Part shown: in pieces, positions 3,022-34,591 of the stretch | How the letters are laid out: every line of letters starts with the position of its first letter | Position numbering within the stretch: position 1 is the first letter of the stretch | DNA from: Candidatus Psychracetigena formicireducens | Lineage (GTDB): Bacteria; Coprothermobacterota; HKB111 | NCBI GenBank assembly: GCA_018725175.1 | Contig: QLTX01000005.1 | Coordinates: 1 to 34,854, forward strand | Reading direction: 5' to 3' | DNA: 34,854 nucleotides | Position numbers and translations under genes: made by a program | Notes under the pieces: generated by a model | The model's input: only the letters and a program-made list of their open reading frames with translations | Told to the model about the DNA's origin: nothing | The model's database searches: none

Positions 3022-3084
3022 TATAGGTGCTTTTATTAAGGATACTCAAAATCCAATATGTTATGGACGACTATACGTGGTCCT

Positions 3085-3567: not shown

Positions 3568-3576
3568 TTCGAAATA

Positions 3577-3605: not shown

Positions 3606-3611
3606 CATATC

Positions 3612-3724: not shown

Positions 3725-3740
3725 GGAGGTGAGATACATC
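3725..3740 (+). promoter_or_regulatory. RBS and non-canonical AUC start of infC
   Basis: GGAGGTGA at 3725-3732 is a strong Shine-Dalgarno. The TTG at 3723-3725 overlaps it and so cannot be served by it. Eight bases after GGAGG comes ATC at 3738-3740, in frame, encoding the Ile that opens ISKGIGLNESIKA. That is exactly where IF-3 proteins normally begin. AUU/AUC starts in infC are known from other bacteria and make the gene sensitive to IF-3 level. Confidence 0.7.
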
Positions 3741-8269: not shown

Positions 8270-9906
8270 CAACGGGTTTAAAAGTTTCTCGAATATTAGA
8301 GAAAATAGCCCTTTACCTGGAAATGAAGGGAGAAAATCCCTTTAAAATAAGAGCCTACCAGAAAGCTTCAGGTGTAATTAGTAATGATTATTCATTTTAC
8401 GAAGGTGATGAACTTCTTCATCAAATCAAATCAACTCCAGGTATTGGCGAAAAAATATATCTCTTAATATCCGAAGCAATCCATACAGGTAAATCGCTTT
8501 TGCTTGAGAAATTGGAAGAAGAAATAAACCCAGGTGTTTTATCTTTTTTGAAAATTCCCGGGGTTGGTCCTCGCACAGCTTATAATTTATATAAAAACCT
8601 TTATTGTTATGACCTAAAAACTCTCAAACACATACTTTTGACCTTCCCTGAACCCCTTCCTGGTATTTCTGAGAATCTCAGAAAAAAATTATTAGCAGGG
8701 ATTGAACTAGTATTGAATAGTGAGCAGCTTCTTCTGCCTTTAGATATTGAAACTGCTGTTTATAATTACCTGCATAAAATGAGTCTAGACACAAGTAGAT
8801 TTGAAATAGCTGGCGATTTCCGTCGCGGAGAATTTGTTAGCAGGTCTGCTACAATCATAATTGAGGATTTAACACGCCCTGAAACTGAATACTTAGAGTT
8901 TGATAACCCTATACCATTAAGAGTTGTGTTAACACCATCATTTATTCCATCACTATTTTTTCATACCGGTCCAGAAGATGAATATGAAAGAGTAAAAGAT
9001 AAATTATTAACCAGAGGATTTAATCTTACCAGTAATGAGCTCTACTCCAAATCAGGAAGAAAAATACCATTAGAATCAGAGGAAGAATTATACAACCTGG
9101 CAGAAACATGCTACTACCCACCAGAATTAAGAAGTGTGAGCTGGAGAAATGAATACCAAAAAGATTTATTAATTGATTTACCCGACATTAAAGGAGATTT
9201 TCAAACCCACTCCACCTGGAGCGATGGTGCTCAGTCTATAAAAGAAATTCACAAAATAGCCTCTAGGCTCGGATATGAGTATATCGCTATAACTGACCAT
9301 AGTAAATCCTTAAAAATTGCTGGTGGCTTAAATGAAGATGAATTTTTAGAACTGAAAAAAGAAATCGATTCCATAAACTCTAAAAACCAAGGAACTTACC
9401 TATTGTGGGGTGGTGAAATAGATATCCTTAAAGATGGTAGCCTTGATTTAGAAGAAAATATATTAAAACTTATGGATTGGCCCATCGGTGCAATTCATTC
9501 AAATTTTTCTATGGATAAGGATAAAATGACAGAGAGAATGGTCAAAGCAATTAGAAATCCCTATCTTAAGGGCATTGTCCACCCTACGGGAAGGATTTTA
9601 AAAGAAAGATTACCCTACCAGCTGGATATTGATTTTATAATTAAAGAAGCTGTTAAATATAATAAGTACCTGGAAGTGAACTCCCAACCTTTTCGCTTAG
9701 ACCTGGATGTAGATGATATCCGTAAAGTGAAAGCTGTAAAAGGTAAGGTATTCCTGGGAACTGATGCTCATAGTCCATTGGAACTTAACTATATTAGGTA
9801 TGGGATTGCCCTGCTTAAAAAATCATGTTTCCCTAAACATGATATCCTGAACACCTACAATTTAAAACAACTTAAATCCGCCCTCCATGAATCAACATAC
9901 ACTTAA
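8266..9906 (+). CDS. polX: PolX-like protein: HhH/degenerate polymerase X plus PHP domain
   Basis: A PolX homologue of 546 aa. PolX proteins join a family X polymerase to a PHP nuclease for DNA repair. I place the start at TTG 8266, overlapping the pheT stop, with AGAGGA just upstream; a longer reading from 8227 adds residues of no family similarity. Two helix-hairpin-helix motifs are visible (STPGIGEKI, IPGVGPRTA). The polymerase motif, normally RRGxxxxGDxD, reads RRGEFVSRSAT at 186-196, so the two catalytic Asp are Ser194 and Thr196. The third (DxR) is Pro217. The polymerase therefore looks dead. The PHP domain keeps THSTWSDG, ITDHS, GGEID, AIHS, HPTGR and TDAH; the first metal His is Gln313, which I recall in some other PolX. 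It may act mainly as a PHP exonuclease or phosphoesterase. It overlaps mutS2. Confidence 0.85.
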   Translation: MTTGLKVSRILEKIALYLEMKGENPFKIRAYQKASGVISNDYSFYEGDELLHQIKSTPGIGEKIYLLISEAIHTGKSLLLEKLEEEINPGVLSFLKIPGVGPRTAYNLYKNLYCYDLKTLKHILLTFPEPLPGISENLRKKLLAGIELVLNSEQLLLPLDIETAVYNYLHKMSLDTSRFEIAGDFRRGEFVSRSATIIIEDLTRPETEYLEFDNPIPLRVVLTPSFIPSLFFHTGPEDEYERVKDKLLTRGFNLTSNELYSKSGRKIPLESEEELYNLAETCYYPPELRSVSWRNEYQKDLLIDLPDIKGDFQTHSTWSDGAQSIKEIHKIASRLGYEYIAITDHSKSLKIAGGLNEDEFLELKKEIDSINSKNQGTYLLWGGEIDILKDGSLDLEENILKLMDWPIGAIHSNFSMDKDKMTERMVKAIRNPYLKGIVHPTGRILKERLPYQLDIDFIIKEAVKYNKYLEVNSQPFRLDLDVDDIRKVKAVKGKVFLGTDAHSPLELNYIRYGIALLKKSCFPKHDILNTYNLKQLKSALHESTYT

Positions 9907-12235
9907 AACCTTTGAATATTATTCTATTTTAGAGAAAGTTAAGGAATACTCCCTTACTAATGAAGGTAAGGATTTTATATTGAACATCAAGCCTTATACA
10001 GATTTTGAGGAGGTTGAAAAGCTTCTCCTTGAAACAGGTGAGGCTATGAGCTTTCTATTAAATAATAACCATCCTCTTAGAGGACTAAAAAGCATCAAAG
10101 AGCCCTTAGCGATGCTTGGGCATAGCGGAATTTTATCCCCGAGAGAAATATGGGACATTGCTACCAATCTGCAAATAATTGGAAATTTCCAACAAACTAT
10201 GAGGAATCGTGCAGGTTATCCTCACTTGAATAAAATAGTTAAGTCGGTTTCAATTTTTCCTGAGATAACCAGAACTATAATAAACTCCTTTGCTGAAGAT
10301 GGAACTGTGTTGGATAGCGCTTCTGCAGAGCTAAAAACCATAAGAAAGAGAATTATTATACTCAAAGAAAGGTTGAGATCAGCCATTGAAGGAATTATAA
10401 ATAACTCTAATTATAAAGCTATACTCCAGGATTACTATGTTACTGAAAGGAATGGTCGTTGGGTAGTCCCAGTCAAAAGCGATTTTAAAAATAGCTTTCC
10501 TGGAATTGTTCACGATATCTCTTCAAGTGGTTCAACCGTTTTCATGGAGCCTTTATCTACTATACCAATTAGTAATGACCTTGTAACCTTAGAAAAAAAA
10601 GAAATGGAAGAGATTAGACGTATATTAAAAGAATTTTCAGAGAAAATGAAATCCTATTTACCTGAATTAGAATATCTACTTCAATCCACCATACATCTGG
10701 AATCCTTGTTTGCTCGCGCCCTATTTGGAACATCTTTCAAAGGATCTATACCAGAACTGGTAAAAGATAAAAAGATTGAAATAGTGGGAGGAAAGCACCC
10801 CCTTTTAAACGTGGAGGTAGTACCTGTTGATATTGAGATAGGCTCTTCTTACCGCACCTTGATTATAACTGGACCGAACACTGGAGGCAAAACAGTTACC
10901 TTAAAAATGGTAGGTCTTTTTACACTTCTTGTTCAAAGTGGTTTTCCTATACCAGCTTTAAAAGCTACTTTTGGAGTATTTCCTAAAATATTTGCTGATA
11001 TAGGTGACGAACAGTCAATCACTCAAAATATGAGCACTTTTTCCTCACACCTAGGTAATATAAGCTCCTTTATAAAAGATGTTGATGAGGATTCACTAGT
11101 AATACTTGATGAATTAGGCGCAGGAACTGACCCTCAAGAAGGTTCAGCCTTAGCCTATTCTATTACTTCTTATTTACACTATTTAAAGCCCTTATTAATT
11201 ATTTCCACCCACCATGGAAATCTAAAAACATTCGCCTATAGCTTTCCTCAATCTGCCAATGGCTCTATGGAGTTTAATCTGGAATCATTAAAACCTACTT
11301 ACAGATTAATAATAGGTGTTCCTGGGAGAAGTTATGCACTTTTTATTGCCTCTAATCTGGGAATACCTGAGACTATAATTTCTCAGGCAAACTCATATTT
11401 ACCAGAAAGCCAGAAAGAGTTTTCTGAGTTAGTAAAAAACCTGGAAGAAGCCAGATTATCCTACGAAGCAAAACGAAAGGAATATGACCGTTTATCTACT
11501 GAATCAGAGGATATTATTACTTATTATAATAACCAAACAAAAGAGTTAAAATTAAAAAAACAAAAGGTTCTTTCAGAAATCAGGATAGAAAATAAAAATG
11601 AGATAGAAAAAATGTTAAACTCAATGAAAGAAGCTCTTAAGAGTTTAAGTGAGCAGAAAACATCTTTGAAAGTTGCTCAAAAAATATATCAGGAACAAAA
11701 AGAACAAGCCGAATCTTTTTTAAATACCCTCCAAACCAAAGAACTGGAAGCAGTCAAGCCTCAGGGTTTGATATCTCCTGAAGAGGTAACTGCCGGAGAC
11801 GAAGTTTTTATAGAAACATTGAATAAATTTGGGACAGTTTTAAAAATATTTTCAACCAGAAACACTGCTTTGATACAAATAGGTGCGCTTAACACTGAGA
11901 TTCCTTTCAAATCAATAAAAGTTAGAACTAATACCTCAAAGTATCAGGAAAGATTGGTAGATAAGAATTACCCATCGCCGGTTACTTATCAAAGCATACC
12001 ACCCACCATAGATCTGCACGGTATGAGAGGTGAAGAAGCCATTAATTTGCTTGATCAGTATATTGAACAAGCCTATCTTTCAAATTATACTCAAGTAAGA
12101 ATAATACACGGTATCGGAAAGGGCATATTAAAAAGATTGGTTAGGGATTACCTGAAAAAACATCCTTATATTTCAAATTTCTCTGCTGACCCTGATGATG
12201 GGGAAGGCGTTACCCTAATTTTATTCAATCGTTAA
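9887..12235 (+). CDS. mutS2: Endonuclease MutS2 (MutS family with Smr domain)
   Basis: MutS2 is the MutS paralogue linked to suppression of recombination and, in some bacteria, rescue of collided ribosomes, rather than mismatch repair. At 782 aa it has the family size and no mismatch-recognition domain. It has core/lever helices, then the ATPase with Walker A GPNTGGKT (329-336) and Walker B DELGAGTDP (408-416), plus a signature stretch DEQSITQNMSTFSSHL. A long charged coiled coil follows (about 500-620), then the C-terminal Smr nuclease domain with DLHG (from 709) and HGIGKG (from 741). ATG at 9887 overlaps the end of polX by 20 bases. The polX-mutS2 order is common in low-GC Gram-positives. 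It ends two bases before the opposing pbp1A stop. Confidence 0.95.
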   Translation: MNQHTLKTFEYYSILEKVKEYSLTNEGKDFILNIKPYTDFEEVEKLLLETGEAMSFLLNNNHPLRGLKSIKEPLAMLGHSGILSPREIWDIATNLQIIGNFQQTMRNRAGYPHLNKIVKSVSIFPEITRTIINSFAEDGTVLDSASAELKTIRKRIIILKERLRSAIEGIINNSNYKAILQDYYVTERNGRWVVPVKSDFKNSFPGIVHDISSSGSTVFMEPLSTIPISNDLVTLEKKEMEEIRRILKEFSEKMKSYLPELEYLLQSTIHLESLFARALFGTSFKGSIPELVKDKKIEIVGGKHPLLNVEVVPVDIEIGSSYRTLIITGPNTGGKTVTLKMVGLFTLLVQSGFPIPALKATFGVFPKIFADIGDEQSITQNMSTFSSHLGNISSFIKDVDEDSLVILDELGAGTDPQEGSALAYSITSYLHYLKPLLIISTHHGNLKTFAYSFPQSANGSMEFNLESLKPTYRLIIGVPGRSYALFIASNLGIPETIISQANSYLPESQKEFSELVKNLEEARLSYEAKRKEYDRLSTESEDIITYYNNQTKELKLKKQKVLSEIRIENKNEIEKMLNSMKEALKSLSEQKTSLKVAQKIYQEQKEQAESFLNTLQTKELEAVKPQGLISPEEVTAGDEVFIETLNKFGTVLKIFSTRNTALIQIGALNTEIPFKSIKVRTNTSKYQERLVDKNYPSPVTYQSIPPTIDLHGMRGEEAINLLDQYIEQAYLSNYTQVRIIHGIGKGILKRLVRDYLKKHPYISNFSADPDDGEGVTLILFNR

Positions 12236-14366: not shown

Positions 14367-14479
14367 ACCCTTTGGGGTTAGGTGTAATTCCTTACCGGCG
14401 GTTAAAGCCCGCGAACCAGTAAATGGTTGAACCGATGAAATTACGGTGCCGACGGTTAAAGTCCGGATGGGAAAAGGGT
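14367..14479 (+). promoter_or_regulatory. FMN riboswitch (RFN element)
   Basis: The FMN-sensing aptamer. The strongly conserved blocks are all present in order: GGGGTTAGGTGTAATTCC, ACCGGCGGTTAAAGCCCGCGA, then GATGAAATTACGGTGCCGAC and GGTTAAAGTCCGGATGG. The closing helix P1 is ACCCTTT (14367-14373) with AAAGGGT (14473-14479). Its position directly before ribD makes it the feedback switch of the rib operon: FMN binding should lower expression. Confidence 0.95.
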
Positions 14480-14506
14480 TAACTCTTTATATTCATACCT
14501 TTTCCC
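14469..14506 (+). promoter_or_regulatory. Expression-platform hairpin competing with riboswitch P1
   Basis: GGGAAAAGG (14469-14477) is perfectly complementary to CCTTTTCCC (14498-14506) across a 20-base loop. It shares bases with the 3' strand of P1, so the two helices exclude each other. No T tract follows, so it does not look like an intrinsic terminator. It ends 11 bases before the likely ribD ATG, which suggests control of translation, but no clear Shine-Dalgarno is seen there. Confidence 0.5.
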
Positions 14507-14517
14507 ACTTTACAGCT

Positions 14518-15645
14518 ATGGATATAAACAATTATTTAATGAAAAAAACTATCAATCTGGCAAAACGAGGCAGGGGAAGGGTAAGCCCTAATCCTCTGGT
14601 TGGTGTATTAATTATCAAAAATGGTGAAATCATCGGGAAAGGCTATCACCAAAGAGCAGGAGAACCTCATGCTGAAGTCCTGGCTTTAAGAGAAGTTGGC
14701 TCAAAGGCAAAAGGTGCAACCTTATTCGTAAATTTAGAACCCTGCTGTCATCACGGTAAAACTCCTCCCTGCACTAAAATGATAATTGAATCAGGTATCA
14801 TAAAAGTCGTTTCAGGAATGGAAGACCCTAACCCCCTGGTTTCTGGTAAGGGATTTGCAGAGTTAAGAAATGCAGGTATAGAAGTCAAAACTGATGTTCT
14901 TAAAGGACAATGTCTTAAACTAAATGAGGTATTTGTAAAATACATAACTTCAAGAAAACCTTTTGTAACTCTAAAGGGCGCCATAAGTCTTGATGGGAAG
15001 GTTTCCACGCATAGGGGTGAATCTAAATGGATAAGTAGTGAAAAGTCAAGAAAGATAACTCACAAGCTTAGAAGTATAAATGATGCTATTTTAGTAGGGG
15101 TTGATACTGTTATTATGGATAACCCACAGTTAACCTGTCGTTTGCGAAAAAAAGCTAACGACCCCCTAAGAATTATTCTGGATAGTACTCTAAGGATTCC
15201 CCCTTCCAGTCAGGTCATACAGTTATCTCGAAAATCTCCGTCCCCCACAATAGTTGTTACTACTGAGCGAGCTACCCCGAAAAAAATTAAAACTATTGAA
15301 AGGGCGGGAGTACAGGTATTAGTTACTAAAAGTACTCAAGATTTACGAATTGACCTTGATAATTTGTTAACCATTCTTGGTGAACGCAATATCACCAGCT
15401 TGTTAATTGAAGGTGGTCCTACGGTAAACGCCAGCGCTCTTCAAGCAGGCATTGTTGATAAGCTCGTTTTATTTGTTTCTCCTATTTTAATTGGTGGCAT
15501 AACCTCTCCTTCTCTTGTAGGGGGAGCCGGTATTGAAAAACTTGTTGATGCTTACAAAATTATAGATTTATCAGTAAAAAAAATTGACAGCAATTTTCAT
15601 TTTGAAGGTTATGTGAGTAAGGAAAAACCATGTTTACCGGACTAA
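14518..15645 (+). CDS. ribD: Bifunctional riboflavin deaminase/reductase RibD
   Basis: Carries out the second and third steps of riboflavin synthesis: deamination of the GTP-derived pyrimidine and NADPH-dependent reduction of its ribose. From ATG 14518 it is 375 aa, the normal size. The open frame runs back into the riboswitch (to 14446), but those codons are non-coding RNA. The N-terminal deaminase has the zinc/catalytic residues H51-A-E53 and PCCHHGKTPPC (C76, C85). The C-terminal reductase has KGAISLDGKVST, ILVGVDTVIMDNPQLT and LLIEGGPTVNAS. An alternative ATG at 14539 is also possible, because neither start has an obvious Shine-Dalgarno. Its end overlaps ribE by 16 bases. Regulation is by the upstream FMN riboswitch. 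Confidence 0.94.
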   Translation: MDINNYLMKKTINLAKRGRGRVSPNPLVGVLIIKNGEIIGKGYHQRAGEPHAEVLALREVGSKAKGATLFVNLEPCCHHGKTPPCTKMIIESGIIKVVSGMEDPNPLVSGKGFAELRNAGIEVKTDVLKGQCLKLNEVFVKYITSRKPFVTLKGAISLDGKVSTHRGESKWISSEKSRKITHKLRSINDAILVGVDTVIMDNPQLTCRLRKKANDPLRIILDSTLRIPPSSQVIQLSRKSPSPTIVVTTERATPKKIKTIERAGVQVLVTKSTQDLRIDLDNLLTILGERNITSLLIEGGPTVNASALQAGIVDKLVLFVSPILIGGITSPSLVGGAGIEKLVDAYKIIDLSVKKIDSNFHFEGYVSKEKPCLPD

Positions 15646-16277
15646 TTGAAGAATTAGCTATAGTAAAAGATATCAGGTTTGATAACCAGGGTTCAAAAAT
15701 TACTATTACATCTAATATTTCTGAATTTCTAAAAGTAGGCGATAGCGTTTCAGTTAACGGGGTATGCCTAACGATTATCCACTGCAACCAGAATAATTTT
15801 ACCGTTGAGGTAATAGGAGAAACCTTATCCAAAACCAATCTGTCATTGTTAGCTCCCAATCAGAAAGTAAACTTGGAAAGAGCTTTATTATTAAGCGACA
15901 GGATAGCAGGACACCTGGTAACAGGGCATGTAGATGAGGTGGGGGTAATTATTAATAAAATAAAAATAGGTTTGGCAGTAGCAACCGAAATAAGTGCTTC
16001 AGAAAACCTCTTGAGTATGGTGGTCAGTAAGGGGTCAATAGCTGTTGATGGGATAAGCCTAACCGTGGTAGAAGTAAAAGAGTTAAGTTTTTCTGTTCAT
16101 CTCATTCCGCATACTCTGGAAAATACTACCCTGAGTTTTAAGGGTGTTGGCTCAAAAGTAAACCTGGAGAGCGATATACTGGCAAAATATGTAAGTAAAA
16201 TGTTAAGCTTACCTAGTGTTAAAGGTAATGTTCCTAAAACCATTACCGAAGAATATCTTATACAAAGCGGTTTTTAA
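15630..16277 (+). CDS. ribE: Riboflavin synthase alpha subunit
   Basis: Dismutates two 6,7-dimethyl-8-ribityllumazines to riboflavin plus the pyrimidine, the last step of the pathway. It has 215 aa, with two lumazine-binding barrel repeats. The first begins MFTGLIEELA and contains GDSVSVNGVCLTI. The second, around residue 97 on, contains GHLVTGHVDEVG, then GSIAVDGISLTVVEV and LIPHTLENTTL. Both repeats look intact. Its ATG lies inside the end of ribD, so translational coupling is likely. Called ribC in E. coli nomenclature. Confidence 0.95.
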   Translation: MFTGLIEELAIVKDIRFDNQGSKITITSNISEFLKVGDSVSVNGVCLTIIHCNQNNFTVEVIGETLSKTNLSLLAPNQKVNLERALLLSDRIAGHLVTGHVDEVGVIINKIKIGLAVATEISASENLLSMVVSKGSIAVDGISLTVVEVKELSFSVHLIPHTLENTTLSFKGVGSKVNLESDILAKYVSKMLSLPSVKGNVPKTITEEYLIQSGF

Positions 16278-16312
16278 TGATTTAGAGACGGAGGTTAATA
16301 AAATATTAATAA

Positions 16313-17515
16313 ATGAATGTTAATTTCAGTTTAATACCAGAAATTCTTGAAGATTTAAGAAAAGGAAAAATGATTATTGTAGTAGATGATGAACATCGTG
16401 AAAATGAAGGAGACTTGGTAATGGCAGCAGAAATGGTAACCCCAGAGGCTGTTAATTTTATGGCAACTTATGGCAAAGGGCTCATCTGTGTACCAATGAC
16501 CGAAGCCCGGCTTAAAGAATTAGACCTACCAATGATGATTCCTGGGGGAAATTATATGTGCGATACTGCATTCACCATCTCAGTTGATGGAATTGATACT
16601 ATCACCGGTATTTCAGCTTACGAGCGTGCCCAAACCATTAAAAAACTTACAGAACCAACATCTAAAAGCCATGATTTTAAAAAACCCGGTCACATTTTCC
16701 CTCTAAAAGCTAAAGAAGGAGGTGTATTGAAAAGGCCCGGACATACTGAAGCAGCAGTTGATTTAGCTTCCTTAGCCGGCCTTTATCCTGCTGGAGTTAT
16801 CTGCGAAATAATGAACGATGATGGAACAATGTCCCGATTACCACAACTTCTGGAGTTTTCTAAGAAGTATAGCCTTAAAATAACTACCATCGCAGAATTA
16901 GTTAAATATAGATTTAAACAGGAAAAGTTGGTGAACAAAATAACCACTGCTAATTTACCAACAAGTTATGGAACATTTAAATTATTAGTTTATGAAGATA
17001 AAATAGAAAACAACTATCATATTGCTCTACAAAAAGGAAGTTTTAATCCTGAGGAGCCTGTTCTGATAAGAATCCACTCTGAATGTTTAACTGGCGATGT
17101 GTTTAGCTCAATAAGATGTGACTGTGGAGAACAGCTTTCTTCTGCCTTGACCATGATTGAAAAAAATCAGAATGGCTTGCTTCTTTATATGAGGCAGGAA
17201 GGAAGAGGAATTGGGATAATGAACAAAATAAAAGCCTATAAGCTTCAAGATGAGGGTAAGGATACAGTTGAAGCTAACCTTGCCCTGGGTTTTGAAGCAG
17301 ATTTAAGGGAGTATGGCTTAGGTGCACAAATAATTAAGGATTTAGGGATTAGGAAAGTTCGGTTGATTACAAATAACCCTCAAAAAATCTCTGATTTAAA
17401 TGAATACGGGGTTGAAGTCATAGAAAGAATACCTTTAACCGTTTGCCCTCAACCGGCTAATTTAAAATATTTAAAGACTAAAAAAGAGAAAATGGGTCAT
17501 CTTTTAGATTTGTAA
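16313..17515 (+). CDS. ribBA: RibBA: 3,4-DHBP synthase / GTP cyclohydrolase II
   Basis: Supplies both precursors of riboflavin. The N-terminal DHBP synthase (about residues 1-205) converts ribulose 5-phosphate and has [28 protein letters not shown] and [14 protein letters not shown]. The C-terminal GTP cyclohydrolase II (about 210-400) opens GTP and has [23 protein letters not shown] with the three zinc cysteines, then [13 protein letters not shown] and TNNPQKI. It has 400 aa, as usual. A GGAGG lies 18 bases before the ATG, unusually far, but an in-frame TAA just upstream rules out an earlier start. It is the third gene of the rib operon. Confidence 0.95.
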
Positions 17516-17539
17516 GATTAACTTAAGGAGGAATAAACT

Positions 17540-18007
17540 ATGAGTCAAGTATTTGAAGGAAATCTGCTGGGAGATGGTTTAAAAGTTGCGGTAGTAATAA
17601 GCAGGTTTAATGAATTCATCACTTCTAAATTGTTAGACGGAGCTAAGGACTGTTTAATCAGGCATGGAGTAAAAGAAAATGATATTGATATTTTTTGGAC
17701 ACCTGGTTCTTTTGAAATACCTTTGATTGCTAAAGCCGTCACCAAAAGAAAAAAACATCATGCGGTTATTTGCCTGGGCGCAGTTATTAGAGGCAGTACT
17801 CCACATTTTGGGTATGTGGCTAATGAAACTGCTAAAGGAATTGCGCAAATTAACCTGGAAATGGGAGTACCTGTTATTTTTGGGATTATTACTGCTGACA
17901 ATTTAGAACAAGCCATTGAAAGAGCAGGAAGCAAAGCTGGCAATAAGGGATGGAGTTCTGCTTTAAACGCTATTGAAATGGCCAATCTAATTAAAATCTT
18001 GGATTGA
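17540..18007 (+). CDS. ribH: 6,7-dimethyl-8-ribityllumazine synthase
   Basis: Condenses DHBP with the aminopyrimidine to make lumazine, the substrate of RibE; it usually forms a 60-mer shell. It has 155 aa. Visible family blocks are [34 protein letters not shown] with the catalytic-site His nearby, [21 protein letters not shown] and KAGNKG. The Shine-Dalgarno AAGGAGG is near perfect, eight bases from ATG. Together with ribD, ribE and ribBA it completes the pathway apart from the phosphatase step. Its stop overlaps the TTG start of the next gene. Confidence 0.96.
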
Positions 18008-18504
18008 AAGTTGTAATCGTTTTTGGACAACATAAATCTGGTAAAACTACTGTAGTAGAGTCCCTTATAAGAGGCATAACTGGAAAAGGTTTTTCGGTAG
18101 CTTCCATTAAAGATATCCACTCCCCTGACTTTGAGCCGGATTCTCAAGGTACTGATACTTTTAGACATGTATCTGCAGGATCTACTTTAACCGTAGGTTT
18201 GGGTTTGCATAAGACCGCTATTTTCGCTCCCTGGAGAATCAAAATAGATAAGTTATTGCAATATATTGAATGCGATTACCTGGTTATTGAAGGGAATTTA
18301 CCGGTTGAAGGAGTAAAAATATTTTGTGCCCATTCTCCAGAAGAATTACCTATAAATGATCGATCTATTATTGCTATATCTGGATTGGCTTCTAATTTAA
18401 TTACTAATTCTTCTAACATTCCCATCTTCCATCCTATTTTTCAGGAAGAAGAGTTGGTTAACCTGGTTTTAGAAAATAGTAAAGATATAGAAAAAATAGT
18501 TTGA
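18004..18504 (+). CDS. MobB-like P-loop GTPase
   Basis: A 166-aa P-loop protein resembling MobB, the GTP-binding accessory of molybdopterin-guanine dinucleotide synthesis. The P-loop GQHKSGKT is at residues 8-15, and the motif [16 protein letters not shown] matches the D-x-x-G-x-D-T-x-R-H-x-x-A-G block of Mob[16 protein letters not shown] fits the later conserved strand. The start is TTG at 18004, overlapping the ribH stop, so it is co-translated with the riboflavin genes. No other molybdenum cofactor gene is in view. A role near riboflavin or another nucleotide cofactor is possible but unproven. It meets psuG tail to tail, ten bases apart. Confidence 0.78.
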
Positions 18505-25454: not shown

Positions 25455-27173
25455 CTAATCCTCCACTTTTATATGTAAGTTTTTGAGCTGTTGGTGCTCA
25501 ACCTCAGAAGGAGCATCTGTTAGGGGGTCATAAGTAGAAGTCATTTTAGGAAAAGCAATAACCTCTCTAATTGATTCTTCTCCCATCAAAATAGCTACCA
25601 GCCTATCAAACCCCAAAGCTATTCCCCCGTGTGGCGGTGCTCCAAATGAAAGAGCTTTTAAAAGAAACCCAAACTTTTCCTCTATTTCTTTATCGCTAAG
25701 ACCCAGAGTTTTGAACAGTTCCTGCTGAATATCGGGGGAAATAATTCTTAGGCTACCTCCTCCTAATTCTACGCCATTTATCACTATATCATAAGCTTGA
25801 GCTCTCATCTTTAAGGGGTTGGTCGAAAATAATGGAATATCCTCAACCAGGGGTGAGGTAAAAGGATGGTGTTTGGAGTTGATATTTCCTTCTTTACTTA
25901 ATTCAAATAAGGGAAAGTCTACCACCCATACCAACTCAAATTCCTTATCAGGGAGGATTTTTTCCACTTCAATAATCTTCTTTCTTAGAAGCCCGAGCAA
26001 TTCCAGGGAGCGGTATTTCTCTCCACCTATCACCATTAAAACATCACCTGGTTGCATGCCATATTTTGTTTTAAGAGCTGTAAATAGTTCAGGGTCTTTT
26101 TCTTGTTCGTCTAATTTAAGGACTTTAACTCCTTTTCCTCCATAGCTCTTTAGGTACTCATCATAACTCTGGAGGTATTTTCGACCGGTTTTAGAAGCAT
26201 TGCGGCATATAATGCCACCGACGAAGGGAGCCTCTTTTAAATACTGAATGTTACTATGTTGAAAAATAGTAGTGAAGTCTAATACTTCCAAGCTATATCT
26301 TAAATCAGGTTTATCGGTTCCATATCTACAAATTGATTCATCGTAAGTAATGATTTTAAAGGGCTTGGGAAGGTCAATATCAAGGATTTCTTTCCATAAT
26401 AAACCGAGGAGATTTTCTACTAAGCTCATAACCTCAAACTGATCAATAAAAGACATTTCTACGTCTATTTGGGTAAATTCAATTTGACGATCCGACCTGG
26501 GGTCTTCATCTCTAAAACATTTAGATAATTGAAAGTATTTGTCAAAATTTGCAATCATCAACAGTTGTTTATAAATCTGGGGTGATTCGGCCAGAGCAAA
26601 GAATTTCCCAGTAAATACACGGCTGGGTATCAGGAAGTTTCTTGCTCCACCAGGAGTGTATTTTACAATTAAGGGTGTTTCCACCTCTATAAAACCATTC
26701 CCGTGGAAAAAATCTCTTACTAATTTAGAAATCTTCGACCTGAAAATAATATTCTTATTAAGTGACTCTCTTCTTAAATCAAGATATCTGTATTTCATCC
26801 TCAAAAGCTCATCTAACTGAAATTCTCTGGAAATCTCAAATGGTAAGGGGAGAGTTGAACTTATGCGGATTATATCGCTTCCCAGGATTTCAACTTCTCC
26901 TGTTTTAATCTGGTAATTAATAGATTCTTCAGGTCTTCTTCTCACATATCCTGATATTTCCACAACCTCTTCCGGTTTAATGTTTAGTAAAAGTTCTGCA
27001 TGAACAGTACTAAGAAAATCATGCCAAACAGTTTGCACCACCCCTTCTCTATCCCTGACATCTATAAAGAGAACACCTCCATGATTTCTGATTTTTTGAA
27101 CCCAGCCTTTAATAGTTATATATTCACCAACATGTATGCTATGTACATTTCCAGCATATACGGTTCTTTTCAA
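25455..27173 (-). CDS. aspS: Aspartyl-tRNA synthetase, probably non-discriminating
   Basis: A class IIb synthetase of 572 aa, bacterial type with the GAD insert. The N-terminal OB-fold has GWVQKIRNHGGVLFIDVRDREG. His31 is the residue that, in characterised bacterial enzymes, marks relaxed recognition of tRNA-Asp and tRNA-Asn; strict enzymes have Leu there. The core has FIEVETPLIVKYTPGGARNFLIPSR, FFALAESPQIYKQLLMIANFDKYFQLSKCFRDEDPRSDRQIEFTQIDVEMSF as motif 2 and GGIALGFDRLVAILMGEESIREVIAFPK as motif 3. TTG at 27173 overlaps the hisS stop (TTGA), so the pair is co-translated. Non-discrimination is inferred and would require GatCAB elsewhere. Confidence 0.95.
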   Translation of the reverse strand: MKRTVYAGNVHSIHVGEYITIKGWVQKIRNHGGVLFIDVRDREGVVQTVWHDFLSTVHAELLLNIKPEEVVEISGYVRRRPEESINYQIKTGEVEILGSDIIRISSTLPLPFEISREFQLDELLRMKYRYLDLRRESLNKNIIFRSKISKLVRDFFHGNGFIEVETPLIVKYTPGGARNFLIPSRVFTGKFFALAESPQIYKQLLMIANFDKYFQLSKCFRDEDPRSDRQIEFTQIDVEMSFIDQFEVMSLVENLLGLLWKEILDIDLPKPFKIITYDESICRYGTDKPDLRYSLEVLDFTTIFQHSNIQYLKEAPFVGGIICRNASKTGRKYLQSYDEYLKSYGGKGVKVLKLDEQEKDPELFTALKTKYGMQPGDVLMVIGGEKYRSLELLGLLRKKIIEVEKILPDKEFELVWVVDFPLFELSKEGNINSKHHPFTSPLVEDIPLFSTNPLKMRAQAYDIVINGVELGGGSLRIISPDIQQELFKTLGLSDKEIEEKFGFLLKALSFGAPPHGGIALGFDRLVAILMGEESIREVIAFPKMTSTYDPLTDAPSEVEHQQLKNLHIKVED

Positions 27174-28426
27174 CTCATATCTCCTTTACCCGAAAGTAAT
27201 ACCAGGACTTTTTCTTCTTCTTCGTTTTCATATACTTTTTCTTCACCTGTAGTAAGGTTTTTCAAAACCATATCTTTTTGAAATATTGTTAAAAAGAATT
27301 CATAATTATCTTTATCTGCTGTTTTAACCTGGGACTTTAGACTTCGGTTTTGGTAATTACATTCAGCTTTTAACCCCCTATTACGTAAATCAAAAGTTAT
27401 TCTAAATACTTTGTCCCAGAGACCGGTTTCGGGAGATGATATATACACACCTTTTCTCGGGGAATTCAAAAAATCAGGATTATTTGAATAAACAACCTGA
27501 TAAAGCCTATCAAATCCTAAAGCAAACCCCACTCCAGGGGTTTCTTTTCCACCGAGACAGGAAATAAGCTGGTCATACCTTCCACCACCAAGAATACTGG
27601 TGCTCTCGCCTAAATAGGGAGTAACTAATTCAAAGACTGTTCTGTTGTAATAGTCAAGACCTCTTACCAGATTAGGATTTTCCTGCCAGTTAATATTAAG
27701 GGTTTGTAACCCTTTTTTAACCTCATCATAATGTTGGCTGCATGAAGGACATAGATTATCAGACAATATTGGCAATTCGGCATTGCGGTGTTTATCAATT
27801 TTACAATCCAACACCCTTAAGGTGTTAGTAGTCACTCTTCGCCGACAGTCTTCACAATAATAGGCAATAACCTGTTTAAGTAAACCGCCAAGCTTTAAAA
27901 TATATTGGGATCTACACTCAGAACACCCAATAGAATTAATATATATTAGGTAGTCTTTGATAGCAAAAGATTCTACAGTATCTTTGCAAAGCGAGATCAG
28001 TTCCACATCCAGGTAAGGCGAATCTGACCCGAGAGCTTCCACTCCAAAGTGGTAAAACTCACGATATCTTCCTGATTGCGGTCTTTCATAGCGAAACATT
28101 GACCCAAAATAGTAATATTTAGATACTCCATTAAATTTATCAATTCCTTTTTCTACAAATAGCCGGGCTAAAGAAGCAGTTCCTTCTGGCCTTAAGGTTA
28201 ACCACCTGCCTTTTCTGTCTTGAAAGGTATACATTTCTTTTTGAACAATGTCAGTATCCTCTCCGATACCTCTCTTAAAGAGTTCCGTATGTTCAAAAGT
28301 GGGAAAGATGACTTTTTTATAGCCATATTCTTCAGCTCTAACAGTAAGTTTACTTAAAATAATATCCCACCCCTCAGATTCCGGGGGTAAAATGTCTCGT
28401 GTGCCGCGGGGTGCTCTGTATTCCAT
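27170..28426 (-). CDS. hisS: Histidyl-tRNA synthetase
   Basis: Charges tRNA-His. It has 418 aa. It opens MEYRAPRGTRDILPPES and has motif 1 EYGYKKVIFPTFEHTELFKRGIGEDTDIVQKEMYTF, motif 2 RPEGTASLARLFVEK with the FGSMFRYERPQSGRYREFYHFGVEALG block, and the family signatures LVRGLDYYNRTVFE and GGGRYDQL. Motif 3 is GVGFALGFDRL. A C-terminal anticodon-binding domain ends the protein. A Cys-rich insert in the middle (CSEC, CEDC, CPSC) is common in non-proteobacterial HisRS. ATG at 28426 follows AGGATGG. It is the first gene of the long minus-strand unit, read from the promoter at 28457-28485. Confidence 0.96.
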   Translation of the reverse strand: MEYRAPRGTRDILPPESEGWDIILSKLTVRAEEYGYKKVIFPTFEHTELFKRGIGEDTDIVQKEMYTFQDRKGRWLTLRPEGTASLARLFVEKGIDKFNGVSKYYYFGSMFRYERPQSGRYREFYHFGVEALGSDSPYLDVELISLCKDTVESFAIKDYLIYINSIGCSECRSQYILKLGGLLKQVIAYYCEDCRRRVTTNTLRVLDCKIDKHRNAELPILSDNLCPSCSQHYDEVKKGLQTLNINWQENPNLVRGLDYYNRTVFELVTPYLGESTSILGGGRYDQLISCLGGKETPGVGFALGFDRLYQVVYSNNPDFLNSPRKGVYISSPETGLWDKVFRITFDLRNRGLKAECNYQNRSLKSQVKTADKDNYEFFLTIFQKDMVLKNLTTGEEKVYENEEEEKVLVLLSGKGDMS

Positions 28427-28556: not shown

Positions 28557-30140
28557 CTAAGAAAACAACTCCAGCCTAGCCATCGCAGGAGCGATTGTTC
28601 CCAGGGAAAGTAGTTTATTATGAAATTCTTTTAAATTAAATTTATCACCTTTTTTAATTTTATAGTCATTTATCAGACTGATAATCTCTCTCTTTCCTGT
28701 AAGAAAAGAAAGAGGTTGTGTAGGGTTAAAAGTATATCTTTTAACTTCAGATTCAGCCTCATTCCTATCCAGATAAGCTTTTTCTATAAGAAAATTAACA
28801 CCTTCTATAACTGTCATGCCCTGAGTGTGTAATTTAATATCAACTATTACCCTGGCTGCCCTCCAGAGTTGGTCTTTATAACGAATTAACCGAAAAATAG
28901 GGTCCGAAAGGTAACCTACATTGTCCATCAACTCTTCACAATAAAAAGCCCAACCTTCTCTAAAGAGGAGTGAATAAGATACTTTTCTAATCAATGACTC
29001 ATTTAAACCAGAAAAAGCAAATTGTAAGTGATGTCCAGGATAAGCTTCATGCACTACAGTAATAGGTATACTTTTCCGATAGTGAGCCCTCAATCCCTTG
29101 CTTTCAGTAGGAGTTATCCAAAATCTCCCGGTTTGTTTATTCTGCAAAAGAGGGGGTGAAACATAACCTACATAAGGTAAAATTGTTCGTGCAAATAAGG
29201 GAGTTTCTTCAATAAGTAAATTTTCATATAAAGGAAAGTCAACCAGGTCTTTCTTCAGAACAAACTCCCTTACCCTGGAGGTTTCTTCTCTATATTCTTT
29301 TAACAGGCTATCTGTTGAAGGATGGTCATCTCTTAATTTCTCAAATATTTCCTGTGGAGAAAGCCCTGGTTCAACAGTATTACATAGCTCTTCTACCTTA
29401 ACCATGGTATCATTAAGAACCATTTCTCCCCAGGATAACAGTTCTTCAGGGGTATGATAAATAAAGTGGTCCTCTAATAGTATCTTTCTGAATATCTCAC
29501 GTCCTACTCCGAAATCGTCTTTATTAGTTGGTAGTGTGTTTAGGTAAGATAAAAAATTCTGCAGAGACTCACTAACCTGTTCTATTAGTCTATCTACTTC
29601 TGGCTTTTGATTATTATTTTCAAAGATAGGGGGTATAGTGAATTTTAAAAACATCAGTCCGCTTTGACCTATCTCCTGGGCAATTTTTATGAAAGTTGCC
29701 GGTGGGTCCACCAGATTCATCTTTCCTTCCCTTAAAACCCTGCTTGCTTCTACCAACCGGTTCTTAATATTCTCCAGCCTTTTCTCTGGTGGTAAATAAT
29801 CTCTGGCAATCAGGAGGTATAAACCGTATAAAAAAGAGTATATATAAATAATCGGTAATTTTTTGGCTAATTTTAAATCAACCAGATTTCTTAAGTTGGT
29901 ATTTAAGAAAGAATTAAATATTTTATAATCTACTCTTTCCCTGACAGGTAATTCCTCAAGCTTAATCTCCTTAAGTTTCTGCAGGTAACTTTCAAAAAAA
30001 GTAATTTGAGTAGCGATACTATCGGTATCATAGCGAGCCAAAAGGTGGTCATAGTTGTGATTGCCTCGCTGAGTTGCTATAACAGGGTTAAAAGAAAAAT
30101 AAGTATCTACTCCTTCTTCAATTATTTTATCCAGTTTCAT
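28557..30140 (-). CDS. DUF885 metallopeptidase-like protein
   Basis: A 527-aa protein of the DUF885 family, predicted zinc metallocarboxypeptidases. The signature H-E-A-Y-P-G-H-H is at residues 364-371 (VVHEAYPGHHLQ), followed about 30 residues later by REGWAFYCEELM, in which Glu is the likely third metal ligand. The C-terminal helices have IVDIKLHTQGMTVIEGVNFL and YTFNPTQPLSFLTGKREI, also conserved. The N-terminus (FNPVIATQRGNHNYDHLLARYD) matches the family start, and no signal peptide is seen, so it is probably cytosolic. It is last in a four-gene unit after cofE, eight bases away. The substrate is unknown; peptide or C-terminal amino acid removal is inferred. Confidence 0.86.
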   Translation of the reverse strand: MKLDKIIEEGVDTYFSFNPVIATQRGNHNYDHLLARYDTDSIATQITFFESYLQKLKEIKLEELPVRERVDYKIFNSFLNTNLRNLVDLKLAKKLPIIYIYSFLYGLYLLIARDYLPPEKRLENIKNRLVEASRVLREGKMNLVDPPATFIKIAQEIGQSGLMFLKFTIPPIFENNNQKPEVDRLIEQVSESLQNFLSYLNTLPTNKDDFGVGREIFRKILLEDHFIYHTPEELLSWGEMVLNDTMVKVEELCNTVEPGLSPQEIFEKLRDDHPSTDSLLKEYREETSRVREFVLKKDLVDFPLYENLLIEETPLFARTILPYVGYVSPPLLQNKQTGRFWITPTESKGLRAHYRKSIPITVVHEAYPGHHLQFAFSGLNESLIRKVSYSLLFREGWAFYCEELMDNVGYLSDPIFRLIRYKDQLWRAARVIVDIKLHTQGMTVIEGVNFLIEKAYLDRNEAESEVKRYTFNPTQPLSFLTGKREIISLINDYKIKKGDKFNLKEFHNKLLSLGTIAPAMARLELFS

Positions 30141-30148
30141 AAAAAAAT

Positions 30149-30916
30149 TTAGAGTGCTCCTTTAAATAAATCTTCATCCTGGGAAAGCAATATTTCGCTC
30201 ATTCCTACATCGCCATCTACCCAGGTTAGGTTCTTGACAATAGAGACAGGTATGGCTTCTGTGGACTGACCAATTACTAATTCTGTAACTGAAGCAATTT
30301 CATCAATAATAGTGGTGTTTTTAACTCTTAGTTCTTTTCCATAAAGATCTCCTGTGTGTCGATAATCTCTGAAGGGAAAAATACCTGAAAAGCCAATAGC
30401 CAAATCCACCTGACCTCTCCTAAAGGGTCGGCTATAGGTATCAGTGATGATTACAGCGATTCTTTTATTGATTATTTTCTGCAGACCTTTACGAATTATT
30501 TTAGAAGATTCGTCAGGGTTTACAGGTAATAAGGAGTAAATAGTCTCGCCAGGTACGTTAGACCTGTCTGCACCTGCATTTAAACAGATATTACCTTGAA
30601 TATTTCTGACAATCAACCCTTCCGGTGTTGCTTTAACTACTTCAACAGTATCTGATAAAACCAACTCAATCAGTCTTGGGTCACGCTGAGTTGCCTCACC
30701 TAACTCCAGAGCCTTTTTAGAAGGCACAATATTTTCCAGGTCATATACCCTTCCTTCGGCTTTAGATACTATCTTTTGAGTTACCACTATAATATCTCCA
30801 TCTTCAATACTAACACTTTCTCTTTTACATGCCTCAATTATTAAGGCTGGTATATCGTCTCCTTCTTTAACTATAGGTATAGTTTGCAACCCGATTATGG
30901 TTAATGTTTTTGCCAT
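30149..30916 (-). CDS. cofE: CofE-like F420-0:gamma-glutamyl ligase
   Basis: The family adds L-glutamate through gamma linkages to coenzyme F420-0 with GTP. It has 255 aa. Recognisable blocks are LQTIPIVKEGDDI, DGDIIVVTQKIVSKAEGRVYDL, GLIVRNIQGNICLNAGADRSNVPG, VIITDTYSRPFRRGQVDLAIGFSGIFPFRDYRHTGDLYGKEL and the C-terminal DEIASVTELVIGQ. These cover the nucleotide, metal and F420-binding loops of the fold, so the protein looks complete. No other F420 gene (cofC, cofD, fbiC) is in the window. It may make F420, or, as a lone homologue, attach glutamate to some other acceptor. It lies between an acetyltransferase and DUF885 on the same strand. Confidence 0.88.
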   Translation of the reverse strand: MAKTLTIIGLQTIPIVKEGDDIPALIIEACKRESVSIEDGDIIVVTQKIVSKAEGRVYDLENIVPSKKALELGEATQRDPRLIELVLSDTVEVVKATPEGLIVRNIQGNICLNAGADRSNVPGETIYSLLPVNPDESSKIIRKGLQKIINKRIAVIITDTYSRPFRRGQVDLAIGFSGIFPFRDYRHTGDLYGKELRVKNTTIIDEIASVTELVIGQSTEAIPVSIVKNLTWVDGDVGMSEILLSQDEDLFKGAL

Positions 30917-30944
30917 TATCTCCTCCGATTATTTTATATCCATA

Positions 30945-32084
30945 TTATAATTTTTTACCAAAAATATAAAACTTCTTATAAGGTACTCCTCCGGCGTTTT
31001 TTATCACATTACTAATCTCCCAGTTATCTTCAAGAGTCATTGAGGCTTCTCCCCAAGTATAACCTTTCTTAATAACTTCTAAGGCTGTTTTAGTATATAA
31101 TAACGCACTTAAGCCGCGGTTTCTATATTCTTCCAATACACCAAGCATAAACACTCTGATTGATTTCATTTTTCTAAATTTTAATCTATAAAGTAATTTG
31201 GCCATGTTCCAGGGAGAAAGGCTTCCATTTAGGTCACTTATAATTTCATTTATATTAGGCAAGGTTACAGATACGCCCACTGGTTGCCCATTGATATATG
31301 CGAATAAAACTAAGTCCGGGTCAATAATGCTTTTAAGTTTAGAACCTACATATTTTACATCATCGTCAGTAATCGGAGTGAACCCCCAGTTCTTTTTCCA
31401 ACATTCATTAAAAAGATACTTTACTACTCCCAGTTCCTCATCAAACTTCTTCATGTTTACACTTCTAACTTTTACCTGAAATCTCTTCTCCAGATTATTA
31501 GTTACATTTTTTAACCAGCCATCTTTTTCAGTAAAAGCTTTTATTTCTACCTGCCAGGCATACCAAGTTTTAACTATATTAAAACCACTATTAGTCAATA
31601 TTTCTGGATAATACGGAGGATTATAACCCGTTAATATAACTGGTGCTGAAAAACCCTCTGCTAAAACTCCTATCTCCTCACTCATGGTAGGATTTACTGG
31701 TCCTATTACTTCAGTCATTCCTTTTTCTTTTATCCACCTACAGACATGCCCAAGCAAAAGTTTACTCGCTTCCACATAATTCACGCATTCAAAGAAGCCA
31801 AAATATCCAGTTTTAGACTGGTGATAATCAACATACTGAAAATCTATATGGGCAGAAGCTCTACCAACTATTTTACCTTTATACTCAACCATAAACAAGT
31901 GCATTTGACCATGCTTAAAAAAAGGATTAATAGATGGAGAAAATCTTTGAGATAATTCAACCCTAAGAAGAGGTATATAGTCCTTATCACCGTTATATAT
32001 TTCGTTTTTGTAAGTAAAATCAATAAACTTATTTAAATTATTTTTATCATTTACTGGAAAGTCAATAATTCTATAATTATTCAT
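30945..32084 (-). CDS. GNAT-like acetyltransferase (YghO-type)
   Basis: A 379-aa protein resembling the YghO group of predicted N-acyltransferases. Characteristic stretches are KDYIPLLRVELSQRFSPSINPFFKHG near the N-terminus, GYFGFFECVN, EVIGPVNPTMSEEIGVLAEGF and TGYNPPYYPEILTNSGF, and a second half with VLFAYINGQPVGVSVTLPNINE and FMLGVLEEYRNRGLSALLYTKT. The last segment matches the acetyl-CoA pyrophosphate loop of GNAT folds (E-x-R-x-x-G-L). Two GNAT-like halves are likely. The ATG at 32084 follows GGAGAGA. The substrate is unknown. It is 42 bases from the M20 gene and 28 from cofE, so the set is probably co-transcribed. Confidence 0.8.
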   Translation of the reverse strand: MNNYRIIDFPVNDKNNLNKFIDFTYKNEIYNGDKDYIPLLRVELSQRFSPSINPFFKHGQMHLFMVEYKGKIVGRASAHIDFQYVDYHQSKTGYFGFFECVNYVEASKLLLGHVCRWIKEKGMTEVIGPVNPTMSEEIGVLAEGFSAPVILTGYNPPYYPEILTNSGFNIVKTWYAWQVEIKAFTEKDGWLKNVTNNLEKRFQVKVRSVNMKKFDEELGVVKYLFNECWKKNWGFTPITDDDVKYVGSKLKSIIDPDLVLFAYINGQPVGVSVTLPNINEIISDLNGSLSPWNMAKLLYRLKFRKMKSIRVFMLGVLEEYRNRGLSALLYTKTALEVIKKGYTWGEASMTLEDNWEISNVIKNAGGVPYKKFYIFGKKL

Positions 32085-32126
32085 ATATATCTCTCCTTGC
32101 AGTCTTTAGGAAATAATGCATCAAAA

Positions 32127-33530
32127 TCACTTTATTCTATTGACATTTTTAATAAACAAAACATAGAATTGTACCATCTTAACCAGATCTACAATCGGTA
32201 TCCTTTCATTAATTCCATGAACACGCTTCATATCCTCCAGAGAAATAACAAGCGGGCGAAACCGATAAATATTTTCACTAACAGATAAAAAATGTCTTGA
32301 GTCTGTAGCTCCAAGTACTAAATTAGGTATGACGGGTACTCCAGGAAATAATTGATTTATCGTTTTAGTTAAAATTGCATATCCTTCATTATCCAGGCTT
32401 GATATTTTTGAAGGATCCCAGCTTTGACCATATTTTTCAACTTTTATGCTGGTATTCTTAACAATTTTCCTTGAATGCTTCAACACTCCCTCAGCAGTAT
32501 TTCCAGGGACTATACGAAAATTTACTACTGCTTTATCAATGGTTGGTAAAATATTATCTTTAACTCCTGCTTCCACCATAGTTACCGCAGTTGTAGTTCT
32601 AATCATTGCTTTAATAAGAGGCGAAGAAACATAATAGGCTAATAGTGGCCAAAAAAGCCATAGATTGGACAAAACAATCTTGTATGAGTAGGAAATATAA
32701 GGAATTAAACTTTCAAAGAATAATTTAGTTACCCAATTAAGCGTTGGAGTGCATTGCTTATTTTCAAGATTAACGATTGCCCGGCTTAACATTCCAATGC
32801 TGGAATTTTTGGTAGGCATTGATGAATGACCTCCACTACTTTCAGAAGTTAATTCAATACTAATATAACCTTTTTCTGCAACACCTACGGTGGCTAATGG
32901 TTTCTCAATAAACTTGTTAAAACCACTAACAATTGCTCCACCCTCATCAAGAACATAATCAATTTTAATATTCTTTTCTTTGAGCATTTGAGATATCTGG
33001 CAGGCTCCCTCCCTTCCACCTATTTCCTCGTCATGACCAAAAGCCAGATATATAGTATCATCAGGTTCAAACCCTTTTTTTAACAAACACTCTACAGCAT
33101 ATAAAGTAGAGATAACACCAGCTTTATCATCTATTGCTCCTCTACCCCAGATGAATCCATCTGAAACTGTTCCCTCAAAAGGTTTGTATATCCACTCTCC
33201 TTCGGTACTACCCTCAACCGGAACTACATCATAATGCCCCATCAACAATACATTGGTATCTTTTCCTTTACCTTCCCAGGTATAAAATAGGCTATAGTCG
33301 TTTATTACTTCTTTTTTCAACTTACTATGCACCAGAGGGAAAGTTAATTCAAGGTAATTAAGGAAGTTATGGAACGGTGTTTTATTAATTTCAAAGTAAT
33401 CTTTTTGAGATATGGTAGCATATTGAAGAGATTGGCTAAATTTCAAAGTAATATCTACAACATCAAGGTTTTCTATTTCACAATCATATTTAGCATCCTT
33501 TTTGAAATTGAGCTTATTAGTACGAAGCAT
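32127..33530 (-). CDS. M20-family peptidase (CPS1/PM20D1-like)
   Basis: A dinuclear zinc aminoacylase/carboxypeptidase of the M20A group, 467 aa. Metal and catalytic motifs are intact: GHYDVVP (H99, D101), WGRGAIDDKAG (D134), FGHDEEIGG (catalytic E168 and ligand E169), and near the C-terminus GATDSRHF with the last His. The dimerisation lid lies between, starting at GYISIELTSESSGGHSS. Its hydrophobic segment (around residue 275-300, LWLFWPLLAYYVSSPLIKA) is typical of the carboxypeptidase S and PM20D1 branch, whose members cut or make N-acyl amino acids or small peptides. The ATG is at 33530; the 213 bases before it, up to the transposase relic, are AT-rich with no recognised gene. It is first in the four-gene minus-strand unit. 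Confidence 0.88.
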   Translation of the reverse strand: MLRTNKLNFKKDAKYDCEIENLDVVDITLKFSQSLQYATISQKDYFEINKTPFHNFLNYLELTFPLVHSKLKKEVINDYSLFYTWEGKGKDTNVLLMGHYDVVPVEGSTEGEWIYKPFEGTVSDGFIWGRGAIDDKAGVISTLYAVECLLKKGFEPDDTIYLAFGHDEEIGGREGACQISQMLKEKNIKIDYVLDEGGAIVSGFNKFIEKPLATVGVAEKGYISIELTSESSGGHSSMPTKNSSIGMLSRAIVNLENKQCTPTLNWVTKLFFESLIPYISYSYKIVLSNLWLFWPLLAYYVSSPLIKAMIRTTTAVTMVEAGVKDNILPTIDKAVVNFRIVPGNTAEGVLKHSRKIVKNTSIKVEKYGQSWDPSKISSLDNEGYAILTKTINQLFPGVPVIPNLVLGATDSRHFLSVSENIYRFRPLVISLEDMKRVHGINERIPIVDLVKMVQFYVLFIKNVNRIK

Positions 33531-34591
33531 CAGGATAGCAACTAAATAAAAATTATTGTTAATATAAAATATAAACCTATAATCATAATTTATCTTCTTA
33601 AACTATAAATAAGATTAACATTCTATATTATATTATAAAATGTATGGTTCTACAATATTAAGTATGAAATATAGTAATTGAAAGCATCCGCCAACCTCGG
33701 TAAACTTAGGTTATAGAAATATAATTTAAGGAGGTAAAAGCGGATGTTAGATGATTCTATCACAGTAAGATTAGGATTGCCAGTGCTTAGAATATTAGAG
33801 CAATGGGAGTTAGAGAATTATTTCCAGGTTAAAGTAATCTATCTACGGAGCAAAGCTAACTGCCTTAAGTGTGGTAAGGTAACCACCAAAGTGCATGACC
33901 GGAGATTACAGTATAAGAAAGATAGAGGACTAAGGGATAAGATAGTACTACTTAAGATCCTGAAGAGGAGATTTAGATGTCCCTTAGAGAGGAAGGTATT
34001 TACGGAACCGGATGAGGTTTTTGGCTTAAGGAGAAGATCCTCCCGAAGATTCAGAGAATACCTGGGCAGGGAAGCCCTCCATCAAACTGTCAGAAGGGTA
34101 GCCCAGAAAGAAAGGGTAGGTGAAGGACTGGTAAGGACAGGCGTAGCTGAAGAGATAGGCAGGATGTTAAAAGCTAAGGGGGTTAAATAAACCCCAGAGT
34201 TCATCGGTCTGGATGAGTTCTCGGTAAGAAAAGGGAGGATTTTTCACACTACCCTGTGTAATCTGCTGACCAGAGAAATAATGGAAGTGGTCGAAGGACC
34301 AGGACAAAAGAAGGTAGAAGAATACCTGGATAAAATATCCCAGCCAGAAAAGGTCAAGGGAGTAGTCATGGACAATACGAACCCTTCCGCCGGGCAGTTC
34401 AGATGGCCCTTCCCTGGACCAAGATCATCATAGATAAGTTCCATCTCTTAAGGCATATAAATGAGGCTCTGGACAAAGTAAGAAGCCGGCTGCAGGGAGG
34501 AAGTGGCAGAGATAAGATAAGAGAGCTTTTTAAAAGTAGATATACCTTACTTAAAGGAGCCGAGAGTCTTAAGGACTGGGAGTTAACTAAA

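Follow-up and report, generated by a model that had tools for sequence, protein, structure and literature searches.

A CofE-family gamma-glutamyl ligase as a probable FolC substitute in Candidatus Psychracetigena formicireducens

The stretch of DNA analysed in this work, referred to as the window, was the complete contig QLTX01000005.1 (34,854 nucleotides) of the Candidatus Psychracetigena formicireducens genome. The gene under study (positions 30149-30916, minus strand) encodes a CofE-family gamma-glutamyl ligase of 255 amino acids (aa), which matched TIGR01916 with 255.7 bits and PF01996 with 229.6 bits. Judging from gene content, phylogeny, residue changes and purifying selection, it was concluded that this protein probably acts as a substitute for FolC, the dihydrofolate or folylpolyglutamate synthase. 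The genome (G000) was assembled as 1.75 Mb in 278 contigs, with a completeness of 93.4% and a contamination of 2.8%. The sister species G001, also fragmented and 83% complete, was the only genus mate compared.

FolC and folate genes

A folate-using organism requires dihydrofolate or folylpolyglutamate synthase. The FolC model (TIGR01499) was matched over its cut-off in 55 of the 60 genomes searched around the window genome, the exceptions being G000, G001, G008, G010 and G055. In G000 and G001, the model matched only with its C-terminal part, at about 36 bits, in 497-aa frames that were read as putative Mur ligases. The probability that both FolC genes were lost through incompleteness alone was about 0.066 × 0.17 = 0.011, assuming independence.

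The six phylum relatives G002-G007 had FolC scores over the cut-off and lacked any match to the window CofE, G000 and G001 had CofE and no FolC, and G008 (68% complete) had neither. This mutual exclusion within the phylum amounts to a single evolutionary event and should not be counted as eight. A Fisher test over the 60 genomes, with FolC absent from 3 of the 7 genomes carrying a full-length CofE versus 2 of the 53 others, gave a p of 0.009, to which little weight was attached because related genomes were counted as independent.

Folate enzymes were found in G000, namely SHMT, FolD adjoining Fhs, and DHPS, together with a methyltetrahydrofolate methyltransferase-like (AcsE-like) gene adjoining that of the CO dehydrogenase/acetyl-CoA synthase delta subunit (AcsD-like). 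Furthermore, G000 and G001 each contained two formyltransferase-family genes of lengths fitting PurN and Fmt. Since FolC was missing and folate enzymes were present, a vacancy existed for exactly the glutamate-ligating chemistry.

A folE-folP-folB cluster with folK was located in G000 on contig C209 (L060) at 8736-11303; it ends near the contig end and has no folC within. Another contig of the same genome, C216 (L044), carried a second, divergent PF01996 protein of 393 aa (2779-3960, minus strand), which scored 142.7 bits with PF01996 and only 51.5 bits with the CofE model. The gene adjoins membrane genes putatively resembling YibE/F and DUF502, as identified by eye. This protein was considered as the FolC substitute and found unlikely, because G026, G030 and G059, which have similar frames of 394 to 412 aa, all have FolC.

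F420 biosynthesis genes

The same 60 genomes were searched with CofD and CofH profiles at a threshold of E<=0.001. Neither CofD (PF01933, TIGR01819) nor CofH (TIGR03551) was matched in G000 or G001; CofC and CofG were not searched. Across the set, CofD (PF01933) matched 16 of the 60 genomes and CofH 43, the latter via cross-hits. Besides CofE, no F420 biosynthesis gene was found among the scanned open reading frames (ORFs) of the window, some ORFs having been omitted from the scan.

Full-length matches to the window CofE occurred in seven of the 60 genomes, that is G000, G001 and five genomes from other phyla. All five of the latter had both CofD and CofH, and in four of them CofD shared a contig with CofE, the two genes lying on separate contigs in G044. 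Within the limits set by the incompleteness of both genomes, the window CofE thus appears to be an orphan with respect to F420. The original prediction that this CofE, with no F420 genes nearby, may serve another acceptor was supported in that CofD and CofH were undetected in both genomes; with no detectable F420 pathway, a non-F420 acceptor is likely.

The genome G055 (L047; 88% complete) had CofE, CofD and CofH, and its FolC was not over cut-off. Its CofE might serve both cofactors, or FolC might sit in the unassembled part.

Origin and selection of the CofE protein

The window CofE scored over the TIGR01916 cut-off (180.65 bits). With PRK13293, it reached 242.7 bits, under the cut-off of 274, and with TIGR04132, the putative folate gamma-glutamate ligase model, 70.8 bits, far under the cut-off of 350.

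Relatives were sought by scanning the genomes of 84,980 species, which gave at least 584 relatives among the 596 pattern matches listed, and the best 80 were kept. Among the matches listed, the closest were those of a bathyarchaeote (L068, 52% identical) and a Thermoproteota archaeon (L069, 51%). When 88 rows were placed in a maximum-likelihood tree, the proteins of the window, G001 and L068 grouped with a support of 100/99, and L069 joined next (98/87). The archaeal top matches and the tree placement make an archaeal origin likely; the gene was probably acquired from archaea, from relatives of the bathyarchaeal CofE.

The CofE proteins of G000 and G001 were 93% identical, with a dN/dS of 0.070. 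This value lay below those of the neighbouring DUF885 (0.143), hisS (0.127), dnaX (0.113) and aspS (0.100) genes and above that of recR (0.042). The window CofE gene is under purifying selection.

Deazaflavin pocket residues

Over its whole length, the window protein was homologous to the CofE of A. fulgidus (AF2256; PDB 2PHN/2G9I/7ULD; E about 1e-47). In the structural description of the A. fulgidus enzyme, the deazaflavin ring is flanked by nonpolar side chains, with F92 at its back and, at its front, the stretch G153-C155 and R234 of the partner subunit (PMC10861534). The A. fulgidus residue numbers used here equal the chain numbers minus 2, as derived from alignments.

The residues were compared in an alignment of 87 CofE rows plus A. 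fulgidus, in which 74 rows were CofD-associated and 13 CofD-less. Of the CofD-associated rows, two of which were identical, 33 came from the genome CofD search (31 over cut-off and two, G064 and G096, slightly under it), 36 had CofD beside CofE (three of them partial at the locus edge) and 5 came from the 60-genome search. Position 153 was glycine in 73 and position 234 arginine in 71 of these 74 rows, and in none of them were both lost. Both were changed in 3 of the 13 CofD-less rows, namely the window protein (S162 and L244), G001 (the same residues) and L068 (serine and isoleucine). Because these three proteins form one clade, the loss of both contacts was counted as one change, not three. 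The window protein further differed from A. fulgidus CofE by H187 (G178) and N229 (G220), where all 74 CofD-associated rows have glycine. The positions D150, R154 and R157 were retained in all rows.

The bathyarchaeal L068 protein resembled the window protein in having serine at G153, asparagine at G220 and a replaced R234, and no CofD or FolC was matched in its genome by profile search. Unlike in the window, a second CofE-family gene adjoins the first in L068, the two being convergent (2255-3034, plus strand, and 3041-3826, minus strand; the second scored 184.7 bits versus a cut-off of 180.65), and no M20, GNAT or DUF885 match was found nearby.

Proposed function and alternatives

In the proposed mechanism, the window CofE would convert the carboxylate of dihydropteroate or (tetrahydro)folate to an acyl phosphate at the expense of GTP, and the amino group of L-glutamate would then attack this acyl phosphate. 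The products would be dihydrofolate and/or folate gamma-polyglutamates, the job of the missing FolC, and the proposed reaction is in this respect that of FolC. The catalytic half of CofE is retained, while part of the pocket for the deazaflavin ring of F420 is altered. FolC itself is described as non-homologous to the CofE family, with an unrelated fold and nucleotide (PMC10861534).

A precedent is found in Chlamydia. The C. trachomatis protein CT611 (FolC2, COG1478) is reported to complement an E. coli folC mutant (PMC1971073) and is tabulated under tetrahydrofolate synthesis (PMC5041015). The window protein is likewise a CofE-family protein in a folate-using bacterium that lacks FolC and other detected cof genes. 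The gene content of the FolC2 functional class, with FolC absent, folate enzymes present and F420 genes absent, was found in both genomes, in G001 through the PurN and Fmt types only. Unlike chlamydial FolC2, the window protein fails TIGR04132, is not in a folate-gene cluster and has archaeal CofE proteins as its nearest relatives. The score far under the TIGR04132 cut-off suggests that it was recruited independently of the chlamydial FolC2 family. No earlier description of this case was found among the papers listed by literature searches.

Several observations weigh against the assignment of the window CofE as a FolC substitute. The family score places the protein in TIGR01916 (CofE), not in TIGR04132, and its gene is not clustered with folate genes, its neighbours being GNAT, DUF885, M20 and hisS. 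In the pocket, the ring-side residue R154 was retained, and F92 was not conserved among F420 makers either. Unusual residues numbered 8 of 42 in the window protein, the same as in the CofD-positive L009, and 6 in A. fulgidus CofE, so the count of such residues alone is not diagnostic.

The folate genes themselves add to these points. The GC content of the folE-folP-folB-folK cluster reached 0.54, compared with about 0.40 in the rest of its contig, and the cluster could be transferred or mis-assembled. At third codon positions, the GC content in G000 was 0.227 (native-like) for SHMT, 0.365 to 0.372 for FolD/Fhs and 0.26 to 0.32 for the window genes. It was considered from the GC data that the folate contigs of G000 may be contamination. 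No DHPS or SHMT was matched in G001, and the FolD model gave only a weak 360-aa match there; since DHPS, SHMT and a clear FolD were not found, the case for folate use in this genome comes from PurN and Fmt. That the genus does not use folate was suggested by these gaps and rejected for now, PurN- and Fmt-type genes being present in both genomes.

Finally, a CofE without CofD does not in general signal that FolC is missing. CofD and FolC were surveyed in 46 genomes, those of 44 of the 80 CofE loci, picked chiefly for having no CofD next to CofE, together with G000 and G001. CofD was lacking or weak in 13, among which FolC was over cut-off in seven (G062, G068, G078, G084, G085, G092 and G094), partial in G086 and not found in five (G000, G001, G060, G073 and G076). 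Among the 33 CofD-bearing genomes, 20 had FolC, and the remaining 13 were largely archaea. It had been predicted beforehand that an orphan CofE always means a missing FolC, which was ruled out by these seven genomes; the reading as a FolC substitute is therefore specific to the window clade.

In the complete Chloroflexota genome of Candidatus Lucifugimonas marina (L129, CP046147), a CofE over the TIGR01916 cut-off was located at 7980-8744; FolC was present, and the profile search gave no real CofD match. The CofE proteins of L129 and L147 have asparagine at the G153 position of A. fulgidus and retain R234. The CofD-less cases in Chloroflexota, L129 included, need an explanation other than FolC replacement.

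The seven FolC-bearing genomes imply either that CofE is used beyond F420 and FolC replacement or that CofD escapes the models. They favour the strongest alternative, in which the window CofE ligates glutamate to another acceptor (a pterin, peptide or protein), as maybe in FolC-bearing Chloroflexota, and FolC is otherwise replaced or folate imported. This was judged unlikely, since FolC was missing from both genomes, where the folate enzymes leave the vacancy described above.

A still smaller probability was given to an ordinary F420-0:L-glutamate ligase, the other F420 genes being unassembled or too divergent, or F420-0 being taken up from neighbours. Such a function would agree with the TIGR01916 equivalog score and with the presence of CofD and CofH in all five other-phylum genomes with full-length relatives. 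However, CofD and CofH were undetected in both genomes of the genus even though the CofH model matched so many of the 60, and two contacts to the deazaflavin ring were changed. Moreover, we know of no F420-0 uptake system, which weighs against uptake.

The four-gene run and its neighbours

The CofE gene lies on the minus strand in a run with three others, as follows. An M20 family metallopeptidase of 467 aa (32127-33530; PF01546 112 bits) is followed by a GNAT-like protein of 379 aa (30945-32084), which matched PF00583 weakly (23.1 bits versus a cut-off of 20.7). CofE comes next, and then a DUF885 protein of 527 aa, a putative metallopeptidase (28557-30140; PF05960 291.1 bits) with an HEAYPGHH motif. 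The gaps were 42, 28 and 8 bases, and 130 bases separate the run from hisS (27170-28426, minus strand; TIGR00442 419 bits), which opens a housekeeping run hisS-aspS-dnaX-recR; aspS and dnaX were identified by eye, outside the profile scan of ORFs. The tight minus-strand run of four genes claimed in the original prediction was thus confirmed by the ORF coordinates, the small gaps and the family profile matches. Four same-strand genes packed tightly are common in bacteria, and the unusual element of the run is the CofE gene rather than the packing. A promoter scan gave 22 sites versus 21.5 expected, leaving operon limits unsupported.

CofE, DUF885 and M20 scored well above the cut-offs of their families, and the GNAT-like protein barely so. 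In the family profile scan, the best NCBIfam models for M20 were PRK08262, every one under its cut-off, and the GNAT-like protein had no NCBIfam match; homologues of the latter were present in 20 of the 60 genomes. M20 retains motifs of the metal-site type, and the DUF885 motif was located at residue 364. Both proteins are likely active enzymes, as judged from these motifs, but nothing links either to CofE.

In G001, the order of the GNAT end, CofE, DUF885, hisS, aspS, dnaX and recR matched the window, and the 28- and 8-base gaps on either side of CofE were identical. M20 could not be checked, because the G001 contig begins within the GNAT gene, whose visible C-terminal end showed deletions and a frame change; an assembly error at the contig end is possible. 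At the 80 other CofE loci, some of which span only 3 to 5 kb, no GNAT, DUF885 or hisS was matched at E<=1e-5, and M20 was matched at one (L122, 29%, about 3.6 kb distant). None of the other run genes was found at 14 other GNAT-homologue loci with flanks of about 1.5 kb, or in stretches of 9 to 11 kb holding CofE from the five genomes of other phyla.

The expected conserved linkage therefore did not hold, three genes being shared with one sister species, with GNAT broken, and absent elsewhere. The original prediction was to fall if a complete F420 pathway coincided with a lack of conserved linkage; the linkage was lacking, and no such pathway was detected. A small four-gene pathway making and trimming a gamma-glutamyl or acyl-amino-acid conjugate was considered improbable, since the tight spacing, the order and gaps shared with G001 and the retained peptidase motifs are set against a broken GNAT end, other CofE and GNAT loci bare of such neighbours apart from one remote M20, and a shared order that may be mere recency, because the synteny runs on into hisS-aspS-dnaX-recR. 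Most likely, the other three genes of the run are bystanders of CofE.

The M20 end of the run abuts a partial ISL3-type transposase frame (33744-34190, plus strand), whose sequence continues out of frame towards the nearby contig end. The other window genes were unremarkable and comprised infC, pheS-pheT, mutS2, a PBP1A-type protein, tmk, DNA replication genes and a riboflavin operon ribD, ribE, ribBA, ribH (14446-18504, plus strand) with a MobB-type gene directly after it.

Implications

Automated annotation would label the CofE gene as encoding an F420 ligase and would count the organism among F420 users. Should the CofE protein indeed substitute for FolC, a core enzyme of folate metabolism would have been replaced by a non-orthologous one in an organism other than Chlamydia. 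Tentatively, the window protein and L068 could define an archaeal-born CofE branch that gave up F420 in favour of folate or a different pterin and is marked by the loss of the G153 and R234 contacts. A bacterium equipped with acetogen-type tetrahydrofolate enzymes would then have received it, and its FolC would have been displaced; FolC2 would in that case have arisen a second time, independently of the chlamydial one. CofE without CofD, found in 13 of 46 chosen genomes, is frequent enough to call for an explanation, and, if the proposal is true, checking the A. fulgidus positions G153 and R234 would be an inexpensive way to tell CofE homologues that still serve F420 from those that do not.

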